IMG/VR virus record: IMGVR_UViG_3300035206_000034
Location: 1-20,134 of that record
Origin: a virus
DNA length: 20,134 nt
Reading direction: 5' to 3' (one strand)
The notes under the pieces were generated by a model that worked only from the letters and a program-made list of their open reading frames with translations, had not been told where the DNA came from and searched no databases. The position numbers and the translations under genes were made by a program. Shown piece after piece: positions 465-14,324 of the stretch (positions within the stretch are counted from its first letter, which is position 1; every line of letters begins with the position of its first letter).

Positions 465-2399
465 CTAGTTAGACTTCTGAACTCGCATATACCATTCTAC
501 TAATCGTTTAACTTGTCGGTTTGTATACCCTTTCTTCACCATTCTATCTATGAAATCGTCATGTTTTGATTGGTCCTCTTTGCTCTTCTTACTACCAAAT
601 GAAATAACTGGAAGCAATTCTTCTGTTCCTGCGAACATCTTATATTCTATTACTTCTCTCATCTTTTCATAAGAAGTCCAAGGTGGATTCTTGCCTTCAT
701 AGTTACTTCTTGCTCGTAATACCCAATTCACAACTTCATTTCTAAAGTCTTTTGGATTGGCAATACCTGCAGGCTTTTCAATCTTCTCAAGTTCTTCATT
801 AAGAATAGAACGGTCAAACAAGTTACCAGTATCAGCATCTTTATAATCGATATTTTGAATCCAGTGGTCAGCATAATCTAAGTATCTATCAAATAGATTT
901 TGACCATATTCATTATAACTCTCTAAATATGCTTTTTGAATTTCTTTTCCTACTTCTTCACTATATTTGACACTTAAATGGTCTTTAATGAAACCAAGTA
1001 GTTCATTTTCTGTCTCTTCTGGAAATTGTTCACGTTTAATTGCCGTTTCTAATACATACATTAGATGTACTGGGTCTGCCGCAATTTCTTCTGGGTCAAA
1101 GTTGAATGTTTGAGATAGAATCTTAAATGCGAAACGAGTACTCATTCCGTTCATTCCTTCATCTACTCCCGCAACATCTCTATATTCCTGCATTGATTTT
1201 GCTTTAGGATCTATATCATGTAAGTTCTCACCATCATATACTCTCATTTTAGCCGCTAGATTAGAGTTCTTATGTTCTTTCAATCTTGAAAGTACTGAGA
1301 ACTGTGCTAATAAGTCAAGTGTATGTGGCGCACAGTTACTGCTATCTAGTCCTGATGAATCTAACATCTTCGTATAGATAAATGTTTCTTCTGTGGCACG
1401 TAAGCAATATGGAACTTTAACGATATATACTCTGTCCAAGAATGCTTCGTTGTTCTTGTTGTTTCTAAATGTTTCCCATTCACTCTCATTTGAGTGAGCA
1501 ACTACGATACCATTAAATGGAATTGCTGAAATACCTTCAGTTCCCATATAGTTACCTTCTTGTGTTGCTGTTAATAATGGATGTAATACTTTGATTGGTG
1601 CTTTAAACATCTCTACGAATTCCATAACACCTTGATTACCACGACATAACGCACCCGAGAATGCGTATGAATCTGGGTCATTTTGTGAAAAGTATTCTAA
1701 TTTACGAATATCAGTCTTACCAACTAGTGCTGATATATCTTGGTTGTTGTCGTCACCTGGCTCGGTTTTCATAATAGCAATTTGCTTTAACTTAGATGGA
1801 TACATCTTCACAACACTAAATTGTGTAATGTCGCCTTCAAATTCATCTAGTCGTTTAACTGCCCATGGTGACAATAAACCAGTAAGATATCGTGCTGGAA
1901 TACCAAATTCTTTTTTAGCATCTTTGCCGAATTCTTTAGGTTCAAACAATCCTAGTGGTGATTCAAATACTGGTGAAATTTCATCACCTGCTTTCAACAC
2001 ATAAACTGGATGTTTTTCCATTAATTCTTTAAGACGTTCTGCTAATGATGATTTACCACCACCAACTGGTCCTAGTAGATATAATACTTGTTTCTTTTCT
2101 TCAAGACCTTGAGCAGATTGTCTGAAATATGCAACCAATCTTTCGATTGCTTCTTCCATGCCATAAAAATCTGCAAATGCTGGATAAACTTTAATCGTGC
2201 GATTTAAAAAGATACGGCTTAATCGAGCATCCGTACTAGTATCAACTAAATCTGGTTTTCCAATCGCATCTAATAGTCTTTCAGCGGCCGATGCATAAAC
2301 TAACTTATTTTTCTTACACAATTTAAGATAATCAGTAAGTGACATCTCCTCGTGTTCTTTGTTAGCATATGATTTTTCAAAATTTTTAATTAAACCCAT
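465..2399 (-). CDS. prkA: PrkA/YeaG family AAA+ serine protein kinase
   Basis: The 644-residue product matches, as I recall, the length of E. coli YeaG and aligns from end to end with the PrkA family. The AAA+ part has Walker A GPVGGGKSS at 110-118, a Walker B-like segment MEFVEMFK at 259-266, a sensor-like stretch GIVVAHSNESEW at 297-308, and the box FLDRVYIVKVP at 320-330 with a candidate arginine finger. The C-terminal third, including EKIEKPAGI and NPKDFRNE, is the PrkA C-terminal domain. I see no truncation or missing key residue. PrkA proteins are ATP-dependent serine kinases linked to sporulation in Bacillus and to starvation responses in enterobacteria. The ATG has Shine-Dalgarno GAGAGGA, and a late-type motif AATAAATA lies 27 bases upstream. 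The downstream gene is its usual partner, yeaH. In a phage it is an auxiliary host-reprogramming gene, and late timing is inferred from the promoter. Base use resembles the neighbours, so acquisition is probably not recent. Confidence 0.96.
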   Translation of the reverse strand: MGLIKNFEKSYANKEHEEMSLTDYLKLCKKNKLVYASAAERLLDAIGKPDLVDTSTDARLSRIFLNRTIKVYPAFADFYGMEEAIERLVAYFRQSAQGLEEKKQVLYLLGPVGGGKSSLAERLKELMEKHPVYVLKAGDEISPVFESPLGLFEPKEFGKDAKKEFGIPARYLTGLLSPWAVKRLDEFEGDITQFSVVKMYPSKLKQIAIMKTEPGDDNNQDISALVGKTDIRKLEYFSQNDPDSYAFSGALCRGNQGVMEFVEMFKAPIKVLHPLLTATQEGNYMGTEGISAIPFNGIVVAHSNESEWETFRNNKNNEAFLDRVYIVKVPYCLRATEETFIYTKMLDSSGLDSSNCAPHTLDLLAQFSVLSRLKEHKNSNLAAKMRVYDGENLHDIDPKAKSMQEYRDVAGVDEGMNGMSTRFAFKILSQTFNFDPEEIAADPVHLMYVLETAIKREQFPEETENELLGFIKDHLSVKYSEEVGKEIQKAYLESYNEYGQNLFDRYLDYADHWIQNIDYKDADTGNLFDRSILNEELEKIEKPAGIANPKDFRNEVVNWVLRARSNYEGKNPPWTSYEKMREVIEYKMFAGTEELLPVISFGSKKSKEDQSKHDDFIDRMVKKGYTNRQVKRLVEWYMRVQKSN

Positions 2400-2458: not shown

Positions 2459-3304
2459 TTATATAATTTTACTGTTAGAAGATGAATAGAACATCTTTCC
2501 TATATTTCCATTAAATGAATAATGGCCTATATGGTCTAGTTTTACTAATGGATCTAACCATATATCACCACCCAGTTTTTGCCATCTTCGACAAAAAGCA
2601 TAATCTTCACTAAGATATCTCTTTGTATCTTCTTCGTGCATACAATCAAAAAACAAATATGTCCACTTTGAAAATTCTTCTTCAAGATGCAAATCATTAT
2701 TGAAATACAATTCTGGATAACTTTCTATCATTTTTTCAATAACACTTCGTTTAATAAGCATAAATCCAGTACCAGCATCTTTAAGTTTTATTAATCCATC
2801 TTCAATTTGTAAATTGCGTGTATCTGTTTCTTCATTATATCCCCAATCAGGATTCATTGCGTAATTTGCCGCAGTATCTTTGATTGAGCCTTCATCTAAT
2901 CCTCTATTAACCGCATCTTTTATAGATGTCCAGTCTAATTCTTTTTTTGGATATGCTCCAACTATGACATCCTTATCATGTTGTAACATATGTAATATAT
3001 CTACTGCATCAAAATTTATATCAGCATCAATAAACATCATGTGGGTTGCTTCTGGATTAGACATAAAATATGCCACCATATGACATCTTGCTCTAGAAAC
3101 TAAACTCTCATTTGCTGATGTTGTTAATGTATACGGAATTTGATATTTCGTAAACATCATATGACCCTTTGTCCATGACCTAAAATATGGTTCAGAAATT
3201 TGACCTGCGTAACATGGTGTACAATAATGAACGTGAGTCTTTTTGATGAAATCTAAATCTATTTCTTTTCTGAATTTAGATAAATTATCTACTATTGATT
3301 CCAT
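2459..3304 (-). CDS. Putative GT-A fold glycosyltransferase
   Basis: This 281-residue protein looks like a small nucleotide-sugar dependent glycosyltransferase of GT-A fold. An opening strand HYCTPCYAGQ (26-35) is followed by NESLVSRARC (65-74) and the metal-binding DxD-type motif in MMFIDADI (89-96). Next come VIVGAYPKK (113-121), an acceptor-side loop GTGFMLIKR (178-186), a probable catalytic acidic pair in LSEDYAFCRRW (231-241), and a late histidine in LDHIGHYSFNG (256-266). These are in the order seen in family 2/Anp1-like enzymes. Its ATG overlaps the stop of the upstream kinase gene by one base (TAATG), so translation is probably coupled. Substrate and acceptor cannot be read from the sequence. 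Modification of host surface glycans, of virion proteins, or of phage DNA are all possible. No signal peptide or membrane segment is seen, so it should act in the cytoplasm. Confidence 0.75.
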   Translation of the reverse strand: MESIVDNLSKFRKEIDLDFIKKTHVHYCTPCYAGQISEPYFRSWTKGHMMFTKYQIPYTLTTSANESLVSRARCHMVAYFMSNPEATHMMFIDADINFDAVDILHMLQHDKDVIVGAYPKKELDWTSIKDAVNRGLDEGSIKDTAANYAMNPDWGYNEETDTRNLQIEDGLIKLKDAGTGFMLIKRSVIEKMIESYPELYFNNDLHLEEEFSKWTYLFFDCMHEEDTKRYLSEDYAFCRRWQKLGGDIWLDPLVKLDHIGHYSFNGNIGKMFYSSSNSKII

Positions 3305-4017
3305 TACTTTTGCTGACTCAATGTATTTTTCTTATTTTTTTGGTCTTTTATCCAGGCTTTTGCATGACGATTTTTAGGTGGTCTATTTACAAAAGCATCA
3401 ATGTTCTTTGTAACTACCTTAAAATTTTCTGCTCTATCTGGATCTTCAAGACTGCCACTGTTATCAACAACTTGAAATTTATCTGCACCAAATAATTGTT
3501 GAAATTTCATCATATTATCTTGAACTGCTCTCCACATTTTTTCAACTTCTACGGATTTAAGAGTTCTCCCCGGTCTGTCTATGTTTCTTTGTTGTGCTAT
3601 ATCTAAACTTGTATTAACGAATAACATCATACAGGAATAACCCATCTGAACTAATTTCTCTTTAGCCTGTGTTATTTTGTTTAAATCTCTTCCAGTACCA
3701 TCTATAATTAATCCCAATCTACCGTCAAGATACATTTGTTCTTTTTTTGTAGTTAGTTCTTTTGCTTTATTTCGAATTTCTTGGCCTTTATCACTATAAA
3801 TTACATCTGGATCTTCATAATTCAAATCTAATTTATCCATTTTATACTCAAATATATCATCTGAATTTACTATTTTTAAACCAGTGCCTTTTAATAAATT
3901 TGATGTTGCAACATAACTCTTACCCGAGCCAGGCCCACCAGCCAGAAATACCGCTTTAAAGATATGTGGATCATATACTCCTTCTTCAATTGATTTTATG
4001 ATTTCGTTGACCTTCAC
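3304..4017 (-). CDS. P-loop kinase (zeta-toxin/polynucleotide-kinase-like)
   Basis: The 237-residue product carries Walker A GGPGSGKS at 27-34, an acidic NSDDIFEY box at 51-58, a strand IIDGTGRD at 104-111 and an arginine-rich lid segment QQRNIDRPGRTL at 142-153. This is the pattern of small P-loop kinases grouped as AAA_33/zeta-toxin-like, which phosphorylate nucleotides, polynucleotide ends or small molecules. The start codon is GTG, supported by Shine-Dalgarno GGGAG about 8 bases upstream; no better ATG lies nearby. It is the first gene of a unit with the glycosyltransferase. Unusually it has both a sigma70-like promoter (4093-4121) and a late motif (4054-4062), suggesting expression throughout infection. 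There is no antitoxin-like gene beside it, so I do not call it a toxin. Substrate unknown. Confidence 0.75.
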   Translation of the reverse strand: MKVNEIIKSIEEGVYDPHIFKAVFLAGGPGSGKSYVATSNLLKGTGLKIVNSDDIFEYKMDKLDLNYEDPDVIYSDKGQEIRNKAKELTTKKEQMYLDGRLGLIIDGTGRDLNKITQAKEKLVQMGYSCMMLFVNTSLDIAQQRNIDRPGRTLKSVEVEKMWRAVQDNMMKFQQLFGADKFQVVDNSGSLEDPDRAENFKVVTKNIDAFVNRPPKNRHAKAWIKDQKNKKNTLSQQK

Positions 4018-4121: not shown

Positions 4122-4138
4122 TTCAAACTTCTCTTTTT

Positions 4139-5974
4139 TTATTTGGGGTTGTTAAACACCTGCGTTTCTATACTCGCCCACGAATTTTTAGTATCTGTTA
4201 GATTCAGAATTGCTCTATCATATTGGTTTTGTACTTCTTTTTCTCCAGTTGCGTACCATTTATCTCTAATTTCTGCTTCCTTAGATTTATCAACGGTGCC
4301 ATCATCAGTGTAATATTGAAAATTCGGGTTGAGTCTCATCGTCAGTAATCTCGTCACCCCTCTATCCATAAGTAGCAAGTTTTTATGCATAGCAATTACT
4401 AAATCTTTAATTTTATCTTTGCCCGTAAAATTGCCATCATCTATCTTTTCTCTTAAATCACTAAGCAAAGTACCTTGAAGTATTTTGTAGTCTTTGATTA
4501 AAGGTATCCATTTTTTCTGTGCTTCTTTATATACAGGAGCAGTTATAGGAGGATAACCTACATATGTAACGCCATCTCTCACAACCCGTATATTCTCATA
4601 TATATACGGTGTAGAAGCATCAACAATATTACCCCTATCAATAATCTGGTCGATTCGCTGAGATGTTGCCTGTATTTTGGCCTTGTTTCTGCTGACAGCA
4701 GAGTTGTTAGAGAGGCCTTTTTGAGCATCTACTTCGCTTTTTTGTGGAGAATATCCATAGATTTGAGTGTGTACTGTAGTTGAACTTTTTGCTAGTGACT
4801 CATTTTCGTTTGTCTCTACGACATCTGTATTGAACGTTTGATTAACTCCAGAATTAAGGGCGGCGAAAGCACGTGCGTATTTTATTTCTTCTGTTACTTC
4901 CTCTGCGTTTGCTCTATTATCTGTAGTTGTTCCTACCATATGAGGATTGCTATAGAGTGGTTTATTTATTTGTTCGACTGCTTCTTTCATAGCAGGAGTA
5001 CCAGTGTTTTCTAATACTTTTCTCTTACAAGGATCTGCTGCCGCTCCTCCAAGAACTAATGCTAATGCTTTTCTTAACAGTTCGGCTGCCATATCGGCTA
5101 AAGCCGCGATTTCATTTGCGATTGCTGATGTTATATCACTCACTGCGTTTATTACTTTTGATACTATAGGTATTAAAATTCCTAAAACAGTTTTAAAGGC
5201 TGCAAGACCAACACCAACTATCGCACTTATTATGTCTGCAACAACACTACCTGCCCCGACTACTGCCGCTACGATACTCTGAAATAAAGATGTTAGACCA
5301 GAATCGTTTAGTAACGCAGTTATGTCACCAATCGCTTGGTCAATAAAATCTAAAGTGCCATCATATATGCCAGCCAATAATCCCATTAACTGATTAAAGG
5401 CCGAACAAGGATCTCCTTGTTCACCAAACTGTTCATTCATTGACGCCAGAGAACTTGCATCTTGCATCGTTCCTGGTATGTTCGCTGTCTGATTATTTGT
5501 ATGATTCGTAAGAGATGTATACATTCCAGTTCCCAATGCCATTAATCCCGCAATCTTTAATATTTTTTCTAAATCTATGCCAGATGCTGCCATCACTCCT
5601 GCGAATAATGCCGCGGTTTCTGCTGTACTAAAATTCTTTGCCGATAATGCTGAACTCAACAATCCCACTTGAGTAGCACCCGATGATGAACCCAAAGCAG
5701 AAAATAAAGAATTACCATATGCTCCTCGTGCCGCATATGGATTAGTGAAGTTATTAGCCTCTATTTCATTTGCTATAGAATTTAATGCCTTTTGTCTATT
5801 ATATTGTTGTTGTCTTGCTTCTAATTGCGCCATTTCAAGTGGCGTCAAGTTTGATGCCGCAATAGCCTCAGAATATAGTTTTGGAGTTAAATTTGTACCA
5901 TCAAATGTTAATGAACCGCCACCATTCGCAACAAATAACTGATATAGTCTTTCGATTTCTGCTTCACTAACCAT
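4139..5974 (-). CDS. Large probable virion protein with hydrophobic Ala/Gly-rich core
   Basis: I do not recognise a named family for this 611-residue protein. Its N-terminal ~160 residues are Ala/Ser/Asn-rich and partly helical. Residues ~195-312 form a long run of hydrophobic and amphipathic segments rich in Ala, Gly, Val and Ile, for example VAAVVGAGSVVADII, with few charges. DPC tripeptides at 188-190 and 314-316 bracket this core and could be disulfide-linked. The C-terminal ~280 residues are polar, charged and probably helical. The gene starts inside the end of the PAAR gene (8-base overlap) and belongs to the same late unit as the tail genes. A tail/baseplate component or a protein carried at the spike and released on injection would fit. 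The hydrophobic core suggests membrane contact or tight oligomer packing. Virion location is inferred from context only. Confidence 0.6.
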   Translation of the reverse strand: MVSEAEIERLYQLFVANGGGSLTFDGTNLTPKLYSEAIAASNLTPLEMAQLEARQQQYNRQKALNSIANEIEANNFTNPYAARGAYGNSLFSALGSSSGATQVGLLSSALSAKNFSTAETAALFAGVMAASGIDLEKILKIAGLMALGTGMYTSLTNHTNNQTANIPGTMQDASSLASMNEQFGEQGDPCSAFNQLMGLLAGIYDGTLDFIDQAIGDITALLNDSGLTSLFQSIVAAVVGAGSVVADIISAIVGVGLAAFKTVLGILIPIVSKVINAVSDITSAIANEIAALADMAAELLRKALALVLGGAAADPCKRKVLENTGTPAMKEAVEQINKPLYSNPHMVGTTTDNRANAEEVTEEIKYARAFAALNSGVNQTFNTDVVETNENESLAKSSTTVHTQIYGYSPQKSEVDAQKGLSNNSAVSRNKAKIQATSQRIDQIIDRGNIVDASTPYIYENIRVVRDGVTYVGYPPITAPVYKEAQKKWIPLIKDYKILQGTLLSDLREKIDDGNFTGKDKIKDLVIAMHKNLLLMDRGVTRLLTMRLNPNFQYYTDDGTVDKSKEAEIRDKWYATGEKEVQNQYDRAILNLTDTKNSWASIETQVFNNPK

Positions 5975-6674: not shown

Positions 6675-7628
6675 TTACATTGTCCAACGTTTTACAGTAT
6701 ATGATATTTCAGTAGTAAAGTTTGCGTCTTGTGTGTAATTAATTTTCATATCAGTACCATCTATAACTGATGTGAATTCAATATTAGAAAATTCATCTGC
6801 TTCAGCGGTTCCATCACCGTCATCTTGCCAAATTTCTGTATTATCGTCTGTAAGTTTAACCAATCCTGTTAGTGGAGGGGTTATAGCCTCTCCATTGATA
6901 ACTCTAATTGTACCGACACGAACAAATGTATTTGTAGTATCTGTTTGTTTCAATGAGTAATCAATAAAAAATGAAGTGGAGTCTGATGCCGCATATTTTA
7001 GAAATGTGCCTTCTGTGGTGTCATTGGCGTTTAATTCTTTCTTAAACAAATCAGAACGTAAGCCAGTTGCTGCCGCATGTGATTCTAAATGTATATTAGC
7101 ATACAATTGACTAAAACTCTTTTCAGTAAGAACTTCTGTGTTTGTTCTTGCTCTACCGAATATTTCTACATTAAATCCACCGTTAGTTTCCATATCAGCA
7201 AGAAGCAAGGCTACGCCGTCAAATTTTGCTGTTCCTGTTCCTGTTCCTACGCCTGTTGCTGTGAATACTGTTCCTGCAACACTATCTGCCGCACCAATTA
7301 AAGTGAAGTCTGTGTTGCCTGGTGTTACAATTGTATATTCAGTACCGACCACAAACGCACCTGCTGAATGGATTGTAGATATACTGATTACTAAATCTTC
7401 ATCTACTTCTAAACCGTTTAATGGAGCAGATAGTAGATTTAGATATGACTGAATAACTGCGTGAGCATTTGCAAACGGGTCAAATACAATTTCATCACTT
7501 GAATCTGCAGTACCAACAAATAGTTGATTCGTGTCAGTAGTATAACCCAATTCGCCAGCATCTAAAGTATCTGCTGTTATCTCATTGCGTAAACCACGTC
7601 TTAATAAAATTTTTACATTTGTTGCCAT
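6675..7628 (-). CDS. Tail-fibre-like structural protein with Mtd-type N terminus
   Basis: This 317-residue protein begins with the segment KILLRRGLRNEITADTLDAG, then ELGYTTDTNQLFVGT (26-40), a signature shared by many phage tail-fibre and receptor-binding proteins and by the N-terminal domain of major tropism determinant. Residues ~90-135 hold a module of form GTEYTIVTPGNTDFTLIGA followed by a GTGTGTA turn, which recurs in many marine phage structural proteins. The remainder is beta-rich and Thr/Asp-rich. The start ATG has Shine-Dalgarno GGGAG 6 bases away and a late motif 21 bases upstream. The role is probably adsorption or a tail/whisker accessory. The protein is short for a full fibre, so it may be a tip or adaptor. 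Which receptor it contacts cannot be read. Confidence 0.75.
   Translation of the reverse strand: MATNVKILLRRGLRNEITADTLDAGELGYTTDTNQLFVGTADSSDEIVFDPFANAHAVIQSYLNLLSAPLNGLEVDEDLVISISTIHSAGAFVVGTEYTIVTPGNTDFTLIGAADSVAGTVFTATGVGTGTGTAKFDGVALLLADMETNGGFNVEIFGRARTNTEVLTEKSFSQLYANIHLESHAAATGLRSDLFKKELNANDTTEGTFLKYAASDSTSFFIDYSLKQTDTTNTFVRVGTIRVINGEAITPPLTGLVKLTDDNTEIWQDDGDGTAEADEFSNIEFTSVIDGTDMKINYTQDANFTTEISYTVKRWTM
7231..7248. repeat. Hexanucleotide tandem repeat (GTTCCT)x3
   Basis: Three perfect copies of GTTCCT on the plus strand lie inside the fibre-like gene and encode alternating Gly-Thr on the minus strand. The next hexamers are degenerate (ACGCCT, GTTGCT). Slippage here would change length in frame by two residues. 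Confidence 0.8.
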
Positions 7629-8373: not shown

Positions 8374-8781
8374 TTATAGATTTTCTTTGACTTCTGCTAT
8401 TAATTTTGCTTTAGTATGTCTACGGTCTAATTGAATACCGAGATTTTCTTCAGCCCATTCATCAATTTGCTTTTTAGTCATTGATTCGAAATTTACTTCT
8501 GGTAGTTCTGTAGTCTGTTCGACTGTTTGGACTGTCTCGCCTGTTGCTATTGTTACAATCTCACTTGTTGCGATTGCATCATCTAATTCTTTTTCATTGT
8601 TTTTAGCAACTCGATTCATAAATTCACGATGTCTTTTAGCATCTTGAACTTCTTTTCTAATTTCTCTCTTTTCTGGAGAAAGTTTTGCTAATGGATCTTC
8701 GCCTTTTTTCATACTATCCACAAGTTTTTTCATTTCTTCTTTAGAGATAACGTTTTGTTCGCCTTTAACTATTAATGCCAT
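8374..8781 (-). CDS. Unknown charged protein with HeH/SAP-like C terminus
   Basis: No family is recognised with confidence for this 135-residue protein. The N-terminal half is Lys/Glu-rich and helical, containing EKREIRKEVQDAKRHREFM around 39-57. The middle (~75-95) is Thr/Glu-rich and probably a linker. The last 40 residues, with SMTKKQIDEWAEENLGIQL and RRHTKAKLIAEVKENL, have the helix-extension-helix pattern of HeH/LEM or SAP-like domains, which bind nucleic acids or proteins in phages. The ATG overlaps the upstream stop by one base (TAATG), and AAGGTG precedes it. As the last gene of the head-type unit it may be an internal or DNA-associated virion protein; this is inference from context. 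Confidence 0.6.
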   Translation of the reverse strand: MALIVKGEQNVISKEEMKKLVDSMKKGEDPLAKLSPEKREIRKEVQDAKRHREFMNRVAKNNEKELDDAIATSEIVTIATGETVQTVEQTTELPEVNFESMTKKQIDEWAEENLGIQLDRRHTKAKLIAEVKENL

Positions 8782-9101
8782 TATTTTTTCACCTTCTTTT
8801 TTGCTGTTTTAACTGCTAATTTATGGACTGAATCTTTTTCAGCCTTGTCACTTTTATTATATTTGTTTTTTAATTCTATTGTATCTACTGTGACTTTTGA
8901 TATGTATTTACTATTTGATAATAAATCAACTATAGACTCTGCATCTACTGTATAGCCCATTCTTTTTAACTCACGAACCATCATGTCCATAGACACAGAA
9001 GGAATTTCATTTGCTTTTAAGGAAATAAGATAAGCATTGATGTCACCCATTAACTGTGCATCATAATTTGCCTTCTCTTGTAAGAGTAGACTGATTTTCA
9101 T
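8781..9101 (-). CDS. Unknown small protein with basic C-terminal tail
   Basis: This 106-residue protein is not recognised. Residues 1-65 appear as a helical domain with alternating hydrophobics (DINAYLISLKANEIPS, MMVRELKRMGYTVD, ESIVDLLSNS). That layout, two or three helices and then a short strand pair (KVTVDTIELKN), is reminiscent of a small winged-helix fold. The tail from ~80 is Lys-rich and ends KTAKKKVKK, which suggests nucleic acid contact or packaging with DNA. It sits one base after the stop of the 151-residue gene and overlaps the next start by one base, so it is firmly within the same unit of probable head proteins. Confidence 0.6.
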   Translation of the reverse strand: MKISLLLQEKANYDAQLMGDINAYLISLKANEIPSVSMDMMVRELKRMGYTVDAESIVDLLSNSKYISKVTVDTIELKNKYNKSDKAEKDSVHKLAVKTAKKKVKK

Positions 9102-9102
9102 G

Positions 9103-9558
9103 TTAGGCTCTTTCTTCTCTGCCTAACGGATTATCCTCTTCACCTGACGCTGATTCATCACCGCCAATATCTGCTGTGAGGTCATCTTCTAGGTCTGCAC
9201 CCATATCGCCACCAAGTTCAACATCACTCATATCATCAGCAACCTTTTCGCCTGATAATACCAGTGTTGCGTCTGCTACTGCATCTTTGGCAGAACGTGC
9301 TTGTCCTAATAGACCATTAATCGCATCATCAACTGAATCCTTAAACGTTGCCGCTTGGTCTGGACCATGTGAGTATGCCATTTCATCTGCTAGTGGACCA
9401 ATTTGGTCATTTTGAATTTTGCCTAGTTTCTCAATTACGTCTTGTAATTCATCAACAATACCTCTGGCAGCCATCGTGATTTCTGCTTCTGCGGCATCGA
9501 CTTCAAGTAGAGAGTTTAACTCTTCCATCAAAGATTTTTCTAATTTAGTTTTTTTCAT
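9103..9558 (-). CDS. Acidic helical protein, probable internal virion/core protein
   Basis: I do not recognise a named family for this 151-residue protein, although proteins of this composition are frequent in marine T4-like phages. Residues 1-50 are strongly helical and coiled-coil-like (EKSLMEELNSLLEVDAAEAE, VDELQDVIEKLGKIQND). Residues 50-105 form a second Ala-rich helical block. Residues 105-151 are a disordered, very acidic Gly/Asp/Glu tail. The start ATG has a good Shine-Dalgarno, AAGGA with 7 bases spacing. It follows the 409-residue protein closely in the same late unit. Its acidic, helical nature would fit a scaffold/core or internal head protein. KTKLEK and LLEV near the N terminus resemble L-x-E type prohead protease sites, a weak hint. 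Confidence 0.6.
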   Translation of the reverse strand: MKKTKLEKSLMEELNSLLEVDAAEAEITMAARGIVDELQDVIEKLGKIQNDQIGPLADEMAYSHGPDQAATFKDSVDDAINGLLGQARSAKDAVADATLVLSGEKVADDMSDVELGGDMGADLEDDLTADIGGDESASGEEDNPLGREERA

Positions 9559-9581: not shown

Positions 9582-10811
9582 TTACATTCCGTAGTATTCT
9601 GTATTTTTATCCCATTCAGAATGTATGTCTTCTAGTTTTTGCTTAATTCCCATTAAGCCGCCAACGCCTGCTTTGTCGCCATTATTAAAAAATTTGGCAC
9701 TGTTTTCGCCTCTATATTGTATTGCATTGTCCAGTTCATCTATGGCACCTTCAATACGACCTATAACAACAGCCAATTGAGAGTCATTTTTCCATCGATA
9801 ATGTTCAGGACCCTTTTCTGCATCTGCTGTTCGTTTATACATTTCATCATCTTCTTTGACTGATTCTCGATACTGACCCCACTCTTTTGGATTAATACTA
9901 TATACATAATCAAAGAATTTCTGTTTGTCGGCATCTGTTTTCAAGTCATCAAGGGAGTTTATCCCAAACTTTTTCATCGCCAAGGTAAGATAGTTAGTAC
10001 CGAAGAGATGGACGATTTTCCTAATAGCCTTGGCGAATGTAACTTTAACACCGCCTTTAGTCATTATTTCTCCTTTGCCTATATGTGGTGGCATGTTGAT
10101 AACTTCATAATCTTTCTCAATATCATACATTTCATCATCTTCTTTGACTGATTCTTTGCTTTCTGAAACAGCGTCCATATATTCACCAACTGCATCAGAC
10201 TTTTTAAGTAAATATTCTATTTCACTTATTGGCTCTGAACTTTCGTGATAAATCCATTCAGCAACCTTGTTGATTAATTCTTCATCATCATCTTCTGTTA
10301 CTTTTTCTTTAATTGATTCCGAAACACCCAAATGTTCTTCAGCATATGCTTTTACATCTTCTGGATTTCCATGAAATGAAACTTTATATCCACCCCACGG
10401 TGAAGTTATTAATTTACCATTGTCATCTCTATGTATTTGCTTTCTTAAGTTAAATTTCTTATGTTCGTGAGGTATACCTTCGGGTTGATAATTTGATACA
10501 GTAATAGTTGTTCCATCATCACTATATTTTTCTCCAGTTGGAGATTCGTCATCTTCTTTTAAAGTCTTACCGTGTGCTTTTAACAATGCTGTAATTGTCT
10601 CAATCATTAACATATTTTCAATATACTTTTTACTCATATAATGATGATTTTTCAACTCTTGTTGCTCAACTTCAAGTGAGTTTTTTGCTTCTTGGAGCGT
10701 ATCTATATCGCCTTCGACTTCATAGCCAAAGTTTTTCTTCATATATTCATTCATTCGTGAAGATACGTGAACTTCATTCGAATTAAAGAAACTTGATGTA
10801 TTTAAATTCAT
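9582..10811 (-). CDS. Multidomain probable head protein with repeated KEDDE linkers
   Basis: This 409-residue protein has no family name I can give. It looks like several small domains joined by acidic linkers. Linkers appear at 83-90 (TLKEDDES), 164-177 (SESIKE to EDDDE), 219-229 (KESVKEDDEMY) and 315-325 (RESVKEDDEMY). The last two are identical over 10 residues and are encoded by a perfect 31-bp direct repeat. Each linker contains [LIV]-K-E, similar to the [LI]-x-E site cut by the T4 gp21 prohead protease, so it may be cleaved into pieces during head maturation. The segment at ~245-310 (KVTFAKAIRKIVHLFG, MKKFGINSLDDL) is helical; 110-165 contains a possible beta domain. The late motif lies 30 bases before the ATG. 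Virion location is inferred. Confidence 0.6.
   Translation of the reverse strand: MNLNTSSFFNSNEVHVSSRMNEYMKKNFGYEVEGDIDTLQEAKNSLEVEQQELKNHHYMSKKYIENMLMIETITALLKAHGKTLKEDDESPTGEKYSDDGTTITVSNYQPEGIPHEHKKFNLRKQIHRDDNGKLITSPWGGYKVSFHGNPEDVKAYAEEHLGVSESIKEKVTEDDDEELINKVAEWIYHESSEPISEIEYLLKKSDAVGEYMDAVSESKESVKEDDEMYDIEKDYEVINMPPHIGKGEIMTKGGVKVTFAKAIRKIVHLFGTNYLTLAMKKFGINSLDDLKTDADKQKFFDYVYSINPKEWGQYRESVKEDDEMYKRTADAEKGPEHYRWKNDSQLAVVIGRIEGAIDELDNAIQYRGENSAKFFNNGDKAGVGGLMGIKQKLEDIHSEWDKNTEYYGM
9837..9867. repeat. 31-bp direct repeat, copy 1
   Basis: Identical over 31 bases to 10125-10155 (plus strand begins atacatttcatc and ends gactgattct). It encodes the ESVKEDDEMY segment of the 409-residue protein at about residues 316-325. 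Confidence 0.95.
10125..10155. repeat. 31-bp direct repeat, copy 2
   Basis: Second copy of the repeat, 288 bases (96 codons) from the first and in the same reading frame. It encodes ESVKEDDEMY at about residues 220-229. Recombination between the copies would delete 96 residues without a frameshift. Confidence 0.95.
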
Positions 10812-10906: not shown

Positions 10907-11524
10907 TTAAAGAATTATTTCTTCGTAAAGTTTTGCTATTCTTCGTTTGGCTTTGCCAGCCTCACTTTTTGCTTGGGAAAATTTTGCTTGGGCAATATCC
11001 ATTCTGCCCTCGTTCATTGCTTTTTTGGCAACTTGATATGAATGCTTATGTTGAAGTGCTCCAGTATAATGACGTTCAAATTTTTCATTTATTGTAATTA
11101 TATCAGTAATTTCTGAAGAATTAATTGGTTTACCTTCATTAAGATGATTAGCAATACAACAAACTGTCTCATATAATTGAATATCTTGAAATAATATAGA
11201 ATCACTACGACTATCAAGTATATTGTATCTATCTTCGTCATTTTTTTCTACTGAAAACGCTCCAACTTTGACGCCTTTTTCAGTTTTAGTAGATTCTGTG
11301 ATTGTTTTCTTGACTTTATATGCTACGCTGGTTGTTGCCTCATTAAAACCTTTCATAATTTTTGACATTGCGTCAATATCCGAACGTTTTACGCCTGGCG
11401 TAACGTCTATGTGTGATTTATCACTCTGTGGGGAAGATGTTTCTTCTAATTTAACTTTTTCGCCATTCATGACCTTCATTAGATTAGTCATTAAATTGAC
11501 ATCTGCTTTGCTTGGTACTGACAT
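10907..11524 (-). CDS. Unknown protein with N-terminal duplicated helix motif, probable virion protein
   Basis: The family of this 205-residue protein is not recognised. The N terminus holds an imperfect duplication: SKADVNLMTNLMKVMNGE (5-22) and KRSDIDAMSKIMKGFNEA (46-63), i.e. D-[VI]-[ND]-x-M-x-[NK]-[LI]-M-K repeated with about 42 residues between. The first copy is followed by KVKLEETSS, another L-E-E site of the prohead-protease type. The C-terminal half is a helical domain (QLYETVCCIANHLNEGKPI, KAMNEGRMDIAQAKFSQA) with a basic end (KAKRRIAKLYEEI). The Shine-Dalgarno TAGGAG 7 bases before the ATG is strong. It lies in the late run beginning at 13181. A head or core component is plausible; the duplicated helices could bind two copies of a partner. 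Confidence 0.6.
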   Translation of the reverse strand: MSVPSKADVNLMTNLMKVMNGEKVKLEETSSPQSDKSHIDVTPGVKRSDIDAMSKIMKGFNEATTSVAYKVKKTITESTKTEKGVKVGAFSVEKNDEDRYNILDSRSDSILFQDIQLYETVCCIANHLNEGKPINSSEITDIITINEKFERHYTGALQHKHSYQVAKKAMNEGRMDIAQAKFSQAKSEAGKAKRRIAKLYEEIIL

Positions 11525-14085: not shown

Positions 14086-14295
14086 CTATTTTCTTCCCAT
14101 TTCTTCTAACATTTTCGCATTTTCAAAAGTTTTATTACTTGCATATACAGTGAAATATCCTGGTATAAATGCGTGTATCGTTAACGCAAATGCCATTTTT
14201 AAACATTTTATCATAAACTTACTAGCAAAGATAAAATGTTCCCAATAAGTCATATTAACGTCATCAAGGTGTTTTTTTGACTCCTTAATAACCAT
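14086..14295 (-). CDS. DUF6356-like small membrane protein
   Basis: The frame is open to a TTG at 14316, but the ATG at 14295 follows Shine-Dalgarno GAGGGGAG and is preferred, giving 69 residues. The segment HLDDVNMTYWEHFIFASKFM followed by IKCLKMAFALTIHAFIPGYF and YASNKTFENAKML matches the pattern I know for DUF6356: a short N-terminal Tyr/Trp-E-H box, a hydrophobic helix, a His-Ala-Phe-x-Pro turn and a charged C terminus. One membrane helix is likely (~31-48). Members occur in bacteria and phages with no assigned function. A late motif ends 29 bases before the start, so it should be expressed late with the 259-residue gene. Confidence 0.75.
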   Translation of the reverse strand: MVIKESKKHLDDVNMTYWEHFIFASKFMIKCLKMAFALTIHAFIPGYFTVYASNKTFENAKMLEEMGRK

Positions 14296-14324
14296 AATTC
14301 TCCCCTCATTCCTCAATTATAATA

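Follow-up and report, generated by a model that had tools for sequence, protein, structure and literature searches.

A cassette-swapping, probably virion, protein of a large marine phage and the 31-base repeat at its joints

In a virus record of 20,134 bases (the whole stretch analysed, hereafter the window), we found a gene for a 409-residue protein, which we call family A, with fixed end domains and changing cassettes between them; the cassettes are gained, lost and shared with other genes, and acidic [LIV]-x-E stretches are the points of exchange. On balance, and with moderate confidence, we read it as a cassette-swapping protein, probably of the virion, of a large marine phage, and a 31-base repeat in its gene as two copies of a joint. 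The window's helicase was closest to those of jumbo phages of Pseudomonas, PA5oct among them (55% identity), and distant relatives of its DUF6267 protein were found mainly in T4-like cyanophages, 50 of the 59 records bearing the name Synechococcus, Prochlorococcus or Cyanophage.

Architecture of the protein and its repeat

From the N terminus, the protein consists of the N domain, LKEDDE, cassette m1, VTEDDDEE, cassette m2, one repeat copy, cassette m3, the other repeat copy and the C domain (Table 1). The first-pass annotation, made from the letters alone, had described a perfect in-frame direct repeat of 31 bases, and comparison of coordinates and sequence confirmed it: the two copies are 100% identical, are spaced 288 bases (96 codons) apart and encode ESVKEDDEMY twice in frame, at residues 220-229 and 316-325. 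The related linkers that it listed, TLKEDDE (residues 83-89) and SESIKE (164-169), are present as claimed, and a further joint-like stretch that it overlooked, KVTEDDDEE, lies at residues 170-178. The pair is the longest exact direct repeat of the window; with one copy blanked, the longest was 17 bases, and the longest exact repeat in 100 mononucleotide shuffles of the window was at most 18 bases; on this ground we rejected a chance origin.

Table 1. Positions in the window of the family A protein, its parts and the genes around it
Feature	Position	Strand	Basis
Family A modular protein, 409 aa: N domain, three cassettes, C domain	9582..10811	minus	ORF, homologous loci
Conserved N domain, helical, residues 1-81	10569..10811	minus	alignment of 18 sequences; AF2
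L39-Q-E41-A42, candidate predicted prohead-protease site in N domain	10686..10697	minus	conservation
Joint 1, LKEDDE, residues 84-89	10545..10562	minus	identity with L012, L013, L014 breaks here
Cassette m1, about residues 90-170	10302..10544	minus	similarity to L109 protein
Joint 2, VTEDDDEE, residues 171-178	10278..10301	minus	L013/L014 identity resumes nearby
Cassette m2, about residues 179-219	10156..10277	minus	also in L013, L014 (cut), L032
Joint 3, ESVKEDDEMY, first repeat copy in reading order	10125..10155	minus	exact repeat
Cassette m3, about residues 230-315	9868..10124	minus	best-predicted part of protein
Joint 4, second repeat copy	9837..9867	minus	exact repeat; [LIV]xE precedes C domain in 22/22
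Conserved C domain, about residues 326-409	9585..9836	minus	alignment; 27 loci
Sister modular gene, family B, 302 aa	11736..12644	minus	shares cassettes with family A in relatives
205-aa neighbour, syntenic	10907..11524	minus	blastp 1.7e-17 to Phosso XYS97613, 2e-5 to GAP32_292
151-aa neighbour, homologous to domain of PA5oct gp247	9103..9558	minus	blastp 6e-18
106-aa neighbour, homologue of PA5oct gp246	8781..9101	minus	blastp 2e-5

An AF2 model built from 21 family sequences was weak as a whole (mean pLDDT 55, pTM 0.27): m3 and parts of the end domains were predicted, and m1, m2 and the joints fell below pLDDT 50. The N domain was predicted as helices at residues 18-28, 36-56 and 61-79 (block pLDDT 56-78 for residues 11-80), and m3 reached a block pLDDT of 84-91 over residues 251-300, with a core, AMKKFGINS..DL, common to proteins in L093, L098, L100, L101 and L103. 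Cassette m2 stayed below pLDDT 50 and m1 yielded no confident structure, m1 matching residues 689-779 of the L109 protein at 36% identity (E 1.7e-9). Fold searches with the weak whole-protein model returned no match at E <= 0.001 in the PDB and BFVD, the protein had no Pfam match at cut-off and PHROG matches only at E >= 0.011, and a tblastn search of 50,697 phage records with the whole protein found nothing; tblastn of phage records with a sister-gene cassette, m3 or the L020 middle likewise found no match. A scan of genome contigs for the N domain gave 152 pattern hits, none of them a relative, and this result together with the phage context disfavours an origin as a host gene or prophage.

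Exchange and sharing of cassettes

IMG/VR scans gave 10 loci for the whole protein, 41 for the N domain and 27 for the C domain, many on the same contigs. The relatives considered here are the proteins holding the N domain (32 distinct, including that of the window), and loci found by the C domain alone with their start cut off were not used. The C domain is present in 22 of the 32; six of the other 10 run off their contig, and in the remaining four the N domain is joined instead to the domain of the 151-aa neighbour. Complete N-to-C proteins ranged from 175 aa without any cassette (L012) to 599 aa (L020), the cassettes measured being about 40 to 125 residues long, and among these relatives, from no cassette to several, the number of linkers varied, in line with the modular reading of the first-pass annotation.

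Near the gene, the window DNA shared 99.4-99.7% identity with L012 and L013 to either side of a differing middle, and 99.3% with L014 on the N-terminal side, the L014 contig ending inside the gene (these identities cover about 700 bases of flank and end domains). The window has m1-m2-m3 in the middle; L012 has nothing there, L013 a cassette with two cysteine pairs followed by m2, and L014 another cassette followed by m2. Identity among the four stopped at the KEDDE/TEDDD joints or within a few codons of them, and that with L013 and L014 was back at about codons 165-167, a few codons ahead of joint 2. Farther from the gene, aligned blocks were mostly 94-99% identical (one 88%), with other stretches variable among these strains at about 4122-4870, 7205-7385 and 14102-14309 of the window. 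The stretch at 7205-7385 is a second sharp break of identity with the close strains, inside a 317-aa gene (6675-7628) that has segments in common with relatives' proteins of up to 853 aa; that at 14102-14309, about 200 bases with a small ORF, is present in L014 and absent from the L012 and L013 contigs, so that a small free-standing gene has been gained or lost there.

The repeat has its counterpart among these strains. L013 carries a single 31-base copy and is the exact allele minus the 288-base unit, its left flank equalling the sequence before the window's first copy (148/150 bases) and its right flank that after the second copy (251/252 bases). Because L013 lacks exactly this unit, the in-frame version shorter by 288 bases that had been predicted from the window alone does exist in a close relative; L013 may represent either the ancestral state or the product of a deletion. 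Among 30 distinct homologues, the longest exact repeat of the gene exceeded 14 bp in two, L018 (18 bp) and L029 (17 bp), and both repeats fell on joints. The sister gene of the window is without a cassette of about 84 codons that L012, L013 and L014 carry. Cassette exchange at the joints is well supported.

Cassettes were also common to several genes. One of 125 aa occupies different positions in L017 and L027, where its two versions share 97% identity, and recurs at 84-89% identity inside the 933-aa L109 protein, which is encoded by another gene. Family A cassettes of L018, L020 and L044, along with a short stretch of L043, matched sister-gene proteins, and a cassette of L023, L024 and L026 was also present in a protein of Methylophilales phage Melnitz and in phage C48C1. 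Pfam and PHROG scans of the A proteins gave a strong family for one cassette only, that of L027 (phrog_7799, 78 positions, 8.5e-14), which weakly matched tiny ORFs of the cyanophages P-SSM7, P-HM1 and S-SSM4 (tblastn E 3e-4, 3e-4 and 4e-5, respectively). A sister-gene cassette matched phrog_13298 and the 83-aa KVP40.0154 (1e-8). To judge from nearby genes, among them nrdC.11 and one for a Dda-like helicase, these small stand-alone counterparts would sit in early-gene regions. The start of KVP40.0154 (L110:2411-2662), MQGFKDYFKKGEVKLQETEQ, resembles a targeting leader with an L-x-E site, ahead of the sister-gene cassette, and the protein is possibly an unrecognised internal head protein of KVP40. 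The third-gene protein of 933 aa (L109:2469-5267) holds at least two shared cassettes and opens with MRLSQLTQPLKESN, just ahead of the first.

The neighbouring genes make it likely that the family A protein is in the virion. The 151-aa neighbour matched phrog_14154 (virion structural, 1.8e-15), and its domain is fused to the family A N domain in L046-L052. In PA5oct (NC_071039.1), gp245-gp247 and gp249-gp254 are annotated ESI-MS/MS, and gp248, a possible counterpart of the 205-aa neighbour (E 0.04), is without this annotation; the tag alone is no proof of a structural role, since the ribonucleotide reductase genes gp240 and gp241 also carry it. A similar row of proteins in GAP32 is annotated virion structural. 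We treat homology between the N domain and the beginning of PA5oct gp247 as no more than suggestive (hhalign P = 0.018, probability 2.6%), and the alignment to Phosso XYS97614, which spanned only 23 columns, was set aside. Elsewhere, the window encodes a PrkA-type serine protein kinase (465-2399, minus strand; AAA_PrkA 1e-172, PrkA C-terminal domain 1e-67).

The [LIV]xE motif and a possible prohead protease

Joints were defined blind to the motif, as the ends of local homology among 49 nonredundant proteins, 22 of family A, 16 of family B and 11 others hand-picked for shared cassettes (151, 67 and 24 joints, 242 in all); ORFs of at least 100 aa were taken, and those covered by another at >= 85% identity were removed (763 to 503). 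The pattern for family B missed four B-like ORFs, which were added by hand in the cassette comparison, and the joint statistics excluded E residues lying 9-15 aa away from a joint. [LIV]xE occurred within 5 residues of 93/242 joints, compared to 45.3 ± 5.4 in circular shifts (maximum 65 in 1000), counts that are not independent as the proteins are related. For E, L/I/V at P3 was enriched near joints (odds ratio 1.96, p = 2e-6), and no such enrichment was found for D, K, S, N or Q.

After merging of identical contexts, [LIV]xE remained more frequent near joints than far from them in all proteins (109/428 vs 96/587, p = 0.0005), in family A with E41 excluded (70/283 vs 18/212) and in family B (28/101 vs 7/89), and was not enriched in the 11 hand-picked proteins (11/44 vs 72/291); whether contexts occurring both near and far were counted as near, counted as far or dropped made little difference. 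Among the merged contexts of the 49 proteins, [LI]xE alone was not significant (p = 0.08), and the strict form [LI]xE|[SNTA] was borderline (19/428 near vs 14/587 far, p = 0.075), its enrichment vanishing when the constant E41 site was kept (p = 0.77). In family A, [LI]xE|[SNTAG] was no commoner near joints than far from them (17 near, 24 far), since the constant E41 of its 22 proteins falls on the far or the near side according to distance; residues 36-44 were then excluded, a choice made after this result was seen, and the P1' classes were likewise picked after the data were seen.

The joints at the two fixed ends were the most regular. Homologues keeping the domains and lacking the motif would have counted against the first-pass annotation by its own account; all 22 proteins with the C domain were found to have [LIV]xE, starting 11-20 residues ahead of the C-domain core. 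In the 19 distinct C joints, P3 was V in 17 and L in 2, P1 was E in 19/19, P2 took six residues, and P1' was D in 15. After the N domain, the motif stood within 24 residues in 25 of 26 distinct sequences, L032 (LDLDD) being the one without it. Shuffling of letters gave expectations of 11.0 (maximum 19) for the 26 N joints and 6.3 (maximum 12) for the 19 C joints.

A protease that might act on such sites is encoded in two related records. T4 gp21 cleaves after L/I-X-E, according to the available text of PMC9026906, and of the 12 related records, the two of greatest size, near-identical to each other, encode a PF03420 protease together with a gp23-type capsid protein; these hold distant relatives with the fused N domain, and since their A-type and protease proteins are mutually identical, the two records may be one virus. 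The protease gene was not seen in the other 10 of the 12 records, all fragments, and no gp21-type protease gene was found among the ORFs of the 20-kb window, which lay outside the 12-record search. From conservation among 64 distinct N-termini in the best 80 of 598 gp23-like loci, none of them proven to be from the window's own phage, we predicted a capsid site of the form [LI]xE|[SNTA], with the E followed by 25 residues ending in Arg-Arg; the N-terminus of L149/L163 was read by eye as M-T-E, the script having given an upstream V-L-E. V at P3, D at P1' and G at P1' were all absent from this set.

Measured against this predicted site, the candidate sites of the two modular genes differ. The first-pass annotation had likened the [LIV]-K-E of the linkers to the [LI]-x-E site of T4 gp21; the repeated site is V-K-E and does not match [LI]-x-E. 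The joints of the repeat, V-K-E|D-D, lie outside the capsid site predicted from the best 80 of 598 loci, and cleavage there is doubtful. In the N domain, L39, E41 and A42 were invariant in 18 sequences, position 40 varying, and LxEA[KR] stood at this site in 22/22 nonredundant A proteins; L-x-E41|A42 agrees with the predicted capsid site, yet it sits in an AF2-predicted helix. In the sister gene, the strict form was found in 9/101 contexts near joints vs 2/89 far from them (p = 0.064), with LDE|AYS, LSE|AYS and IDE|SAY as fitting examples; allowing G at P1' gave 16 near vs 2 far (p = 0.001), and nine further joint contexts had V at P3. As judged from these motifs, cleavage after E41 and at some sister-gene joints is plausible.

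Residues 99-131 of a 135-aa neighbour (8374-8781, minus strand) match phrog_8608, prohead protease inhibitor (6e-6). A P-loop protein (3304-4017, minus strand; Zeta_toxin 5.6e-11, AAA_33 2.4e-8) starts with MKVNEIIKSIEEGVYDP, which has the look of a brief leader that stops at an [LI]xE|G site; the protein is possibly a packaged kinase. In the accessible parts of the papers on Melnitz, CBB and MIJ3, nothing is said on the cutting of such proteins.

Competing readings and relation to known systems

According to our preferred reading, that of a cassette-swapping and probably virion protein, the 31-bp repeat is either the remnant of one cassette gain or the substrate for the matching 288-base loss, and short homology in the joint DNA would enable in-frame recombination that swaps whole cassettes. 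The protein would be assembled into the virion, most likely in the head interior, as the PA5oct homologue of the neighbouring gene apparently is, in which case cassette swapping would alter the protein payload. More speculatively, a T4-type prohead protease may trim the protein; a cut after E41 is the most credible case, some sister-gene joints may be cut as well, and V-K-E|D-D is the least credible site.

The strongest rival, to which we give somewhat less than an even chance, holds that the joints are ordinary acidic disordered linkers of a virion or non-virion protein, with no protease involved; the cassettes would be shuffled because the linkers have codons in common, and [LIV]xE would be a by-product of a few reused ancestral linkers. 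The D that follows the motif in most distinct C joints, unlike the predicted capsid site, speaks for it, as do the lack of a clear enrichment of the strict capsid form at joints and the absence of [LIV]xE enrichment from the 11 other proteins; E and D at joints could be ordinary linker composition, and the joints lie in stretches of pLDDT < 50, although m1 and m2 do likewise. Against it, P3 is held to [VL] and P1 to E with six different residues at P2, the enrichment of [LIV]xE survives merging of contexts in both A and B, and D, K, S, N and Q show no such excess of L/I/V two residues upstream. The opposite rival, of a polyprotein in which the prohead protease cuts every [LIV]xE joint, the two copies of the repeat included, and frees each cassette as an internal head protein of its own, was raised by the first-pass annotation and appears unlikely to us. 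The joint-motif statistics, the cleavage specificity of T4 gp21 as given in the available text of PMC9026906 and the PF03420 gene in two distant relatives favour it. The prohead-protease site put forward in the first-pass annotation is partly supported, by a motif that marks joints and by a T4-type protease gene in 2 of 12 related records; V-K-E|D-D itself is unlike the capsid site predicted from the best 80 of 598 loci. Against the polyprotein stand the V at P3 and D at P1' of the repeat, absent from the 64 predicted capsid sites, the sister-gene joints with V at P3 (9) or G after [LI]xE (7), neither of which occurs in the capsid set, and the other 10 related records, fragments in which the protease gene was unseen.

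A third rival takes the repeat for an accident, a second copy arising from recent slippage or a meaningless misassembly, and misassembly could give two perfect copies in one metagenomic contig. But the unit between the copies is open, has a well-predicted core and is related to parts of other phage proteins; the reading frame is preserved, both flanks agree with those of a real relative (L013), and the various architectures are joined at sites of one kind. We rejected slippage and misassembly on the open unit, the predicted core and the L013 flank matches, and consider an accidental origin very improbable. A broader proposal, which we put forward only tentatively and think improbable as a whole, is that of a payload magazine: marine T4-superfamily jumbo phages would hold two or three of their virion proteins in the form of cassette arrays, into which small stand-alone genes such as those of cyanophages and KVP40 would be loaded in frame between joints serving both recombination and the protease, and strains with closely similar genomes would swap payloads, delivering host-takeover or anti-defence domains at injection.

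If our preferred reading holds, the joint has a double use, in DNA as a recombination site and, possibly, in protein as a cutting site, which would explain how a phage renews the cargo it carries in without breaking the carrier protein. Cassettes between conserved joints also offer a search handle for candidate injected proteins in uncultured phages, and even without cleavage, whole-domain swapping in one gene of close phages is a useful natural experiment.

Among the titles and abstract openings listed from open-access papers, we found no earlier account of cassette arrays with prohead-protease joints. The PA5oct gp247-gp249 locus is syntenic and its gp247 carries the domain of the 151-aa neighbour, but the similarity of the N domain is too weak to prove descent. 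In phage protein domain mosaicism (PMC10684548), ongoing shuffling of fragments is likewise described, and in the available text that paper names replication, tail and lysis classes, no word of its main text starting with internal, linker or protease. In SPN3US, the gp21-like gp245 cuts head proteins of a large phage, with several cuts in long propeptides; unlike the sites considered here, it cuts after A-X-E, 13/14 sites remove N-terminal propeptides, and no cassette exchange is described in the available text (PMC10052503).

Two systems come closest. Polyvalent proteins are multidomain phage proteins with reassorted domains, for which entry into the host along with the DNA is predicted (Iyer et al. 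2017, PMC5512222), and family A similarly has two or more reassorted domains per polypeptide. Polyvalent proteins, as presented in the accessible text of that paper, combine recognisable enzymatic domains, and processing by their own metallopeptidase is proposed, with an assemblin-like peptidase in some; in contrast, the A proteins scanned (11/32) match no Pfam family at cut-off, though unknown folds could be enzymes, and no peptidase domain was found in them, so that cutting, if there is any, would fall to a separate prohead protease. T4 IPI-IPIII and Alt, in the available text of PMC9026906, are variable head proteins cut after L/I-X-E, to which the candidate L-x-E|A in the fixed N region would correspond; the T4 internal proteins are separate and have short targeting leaders, whereas here several domains are strung between fixed ends. 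The family A protein thus resembles both the polyvalent proteins and the T4 internal proteins without full membership in either.
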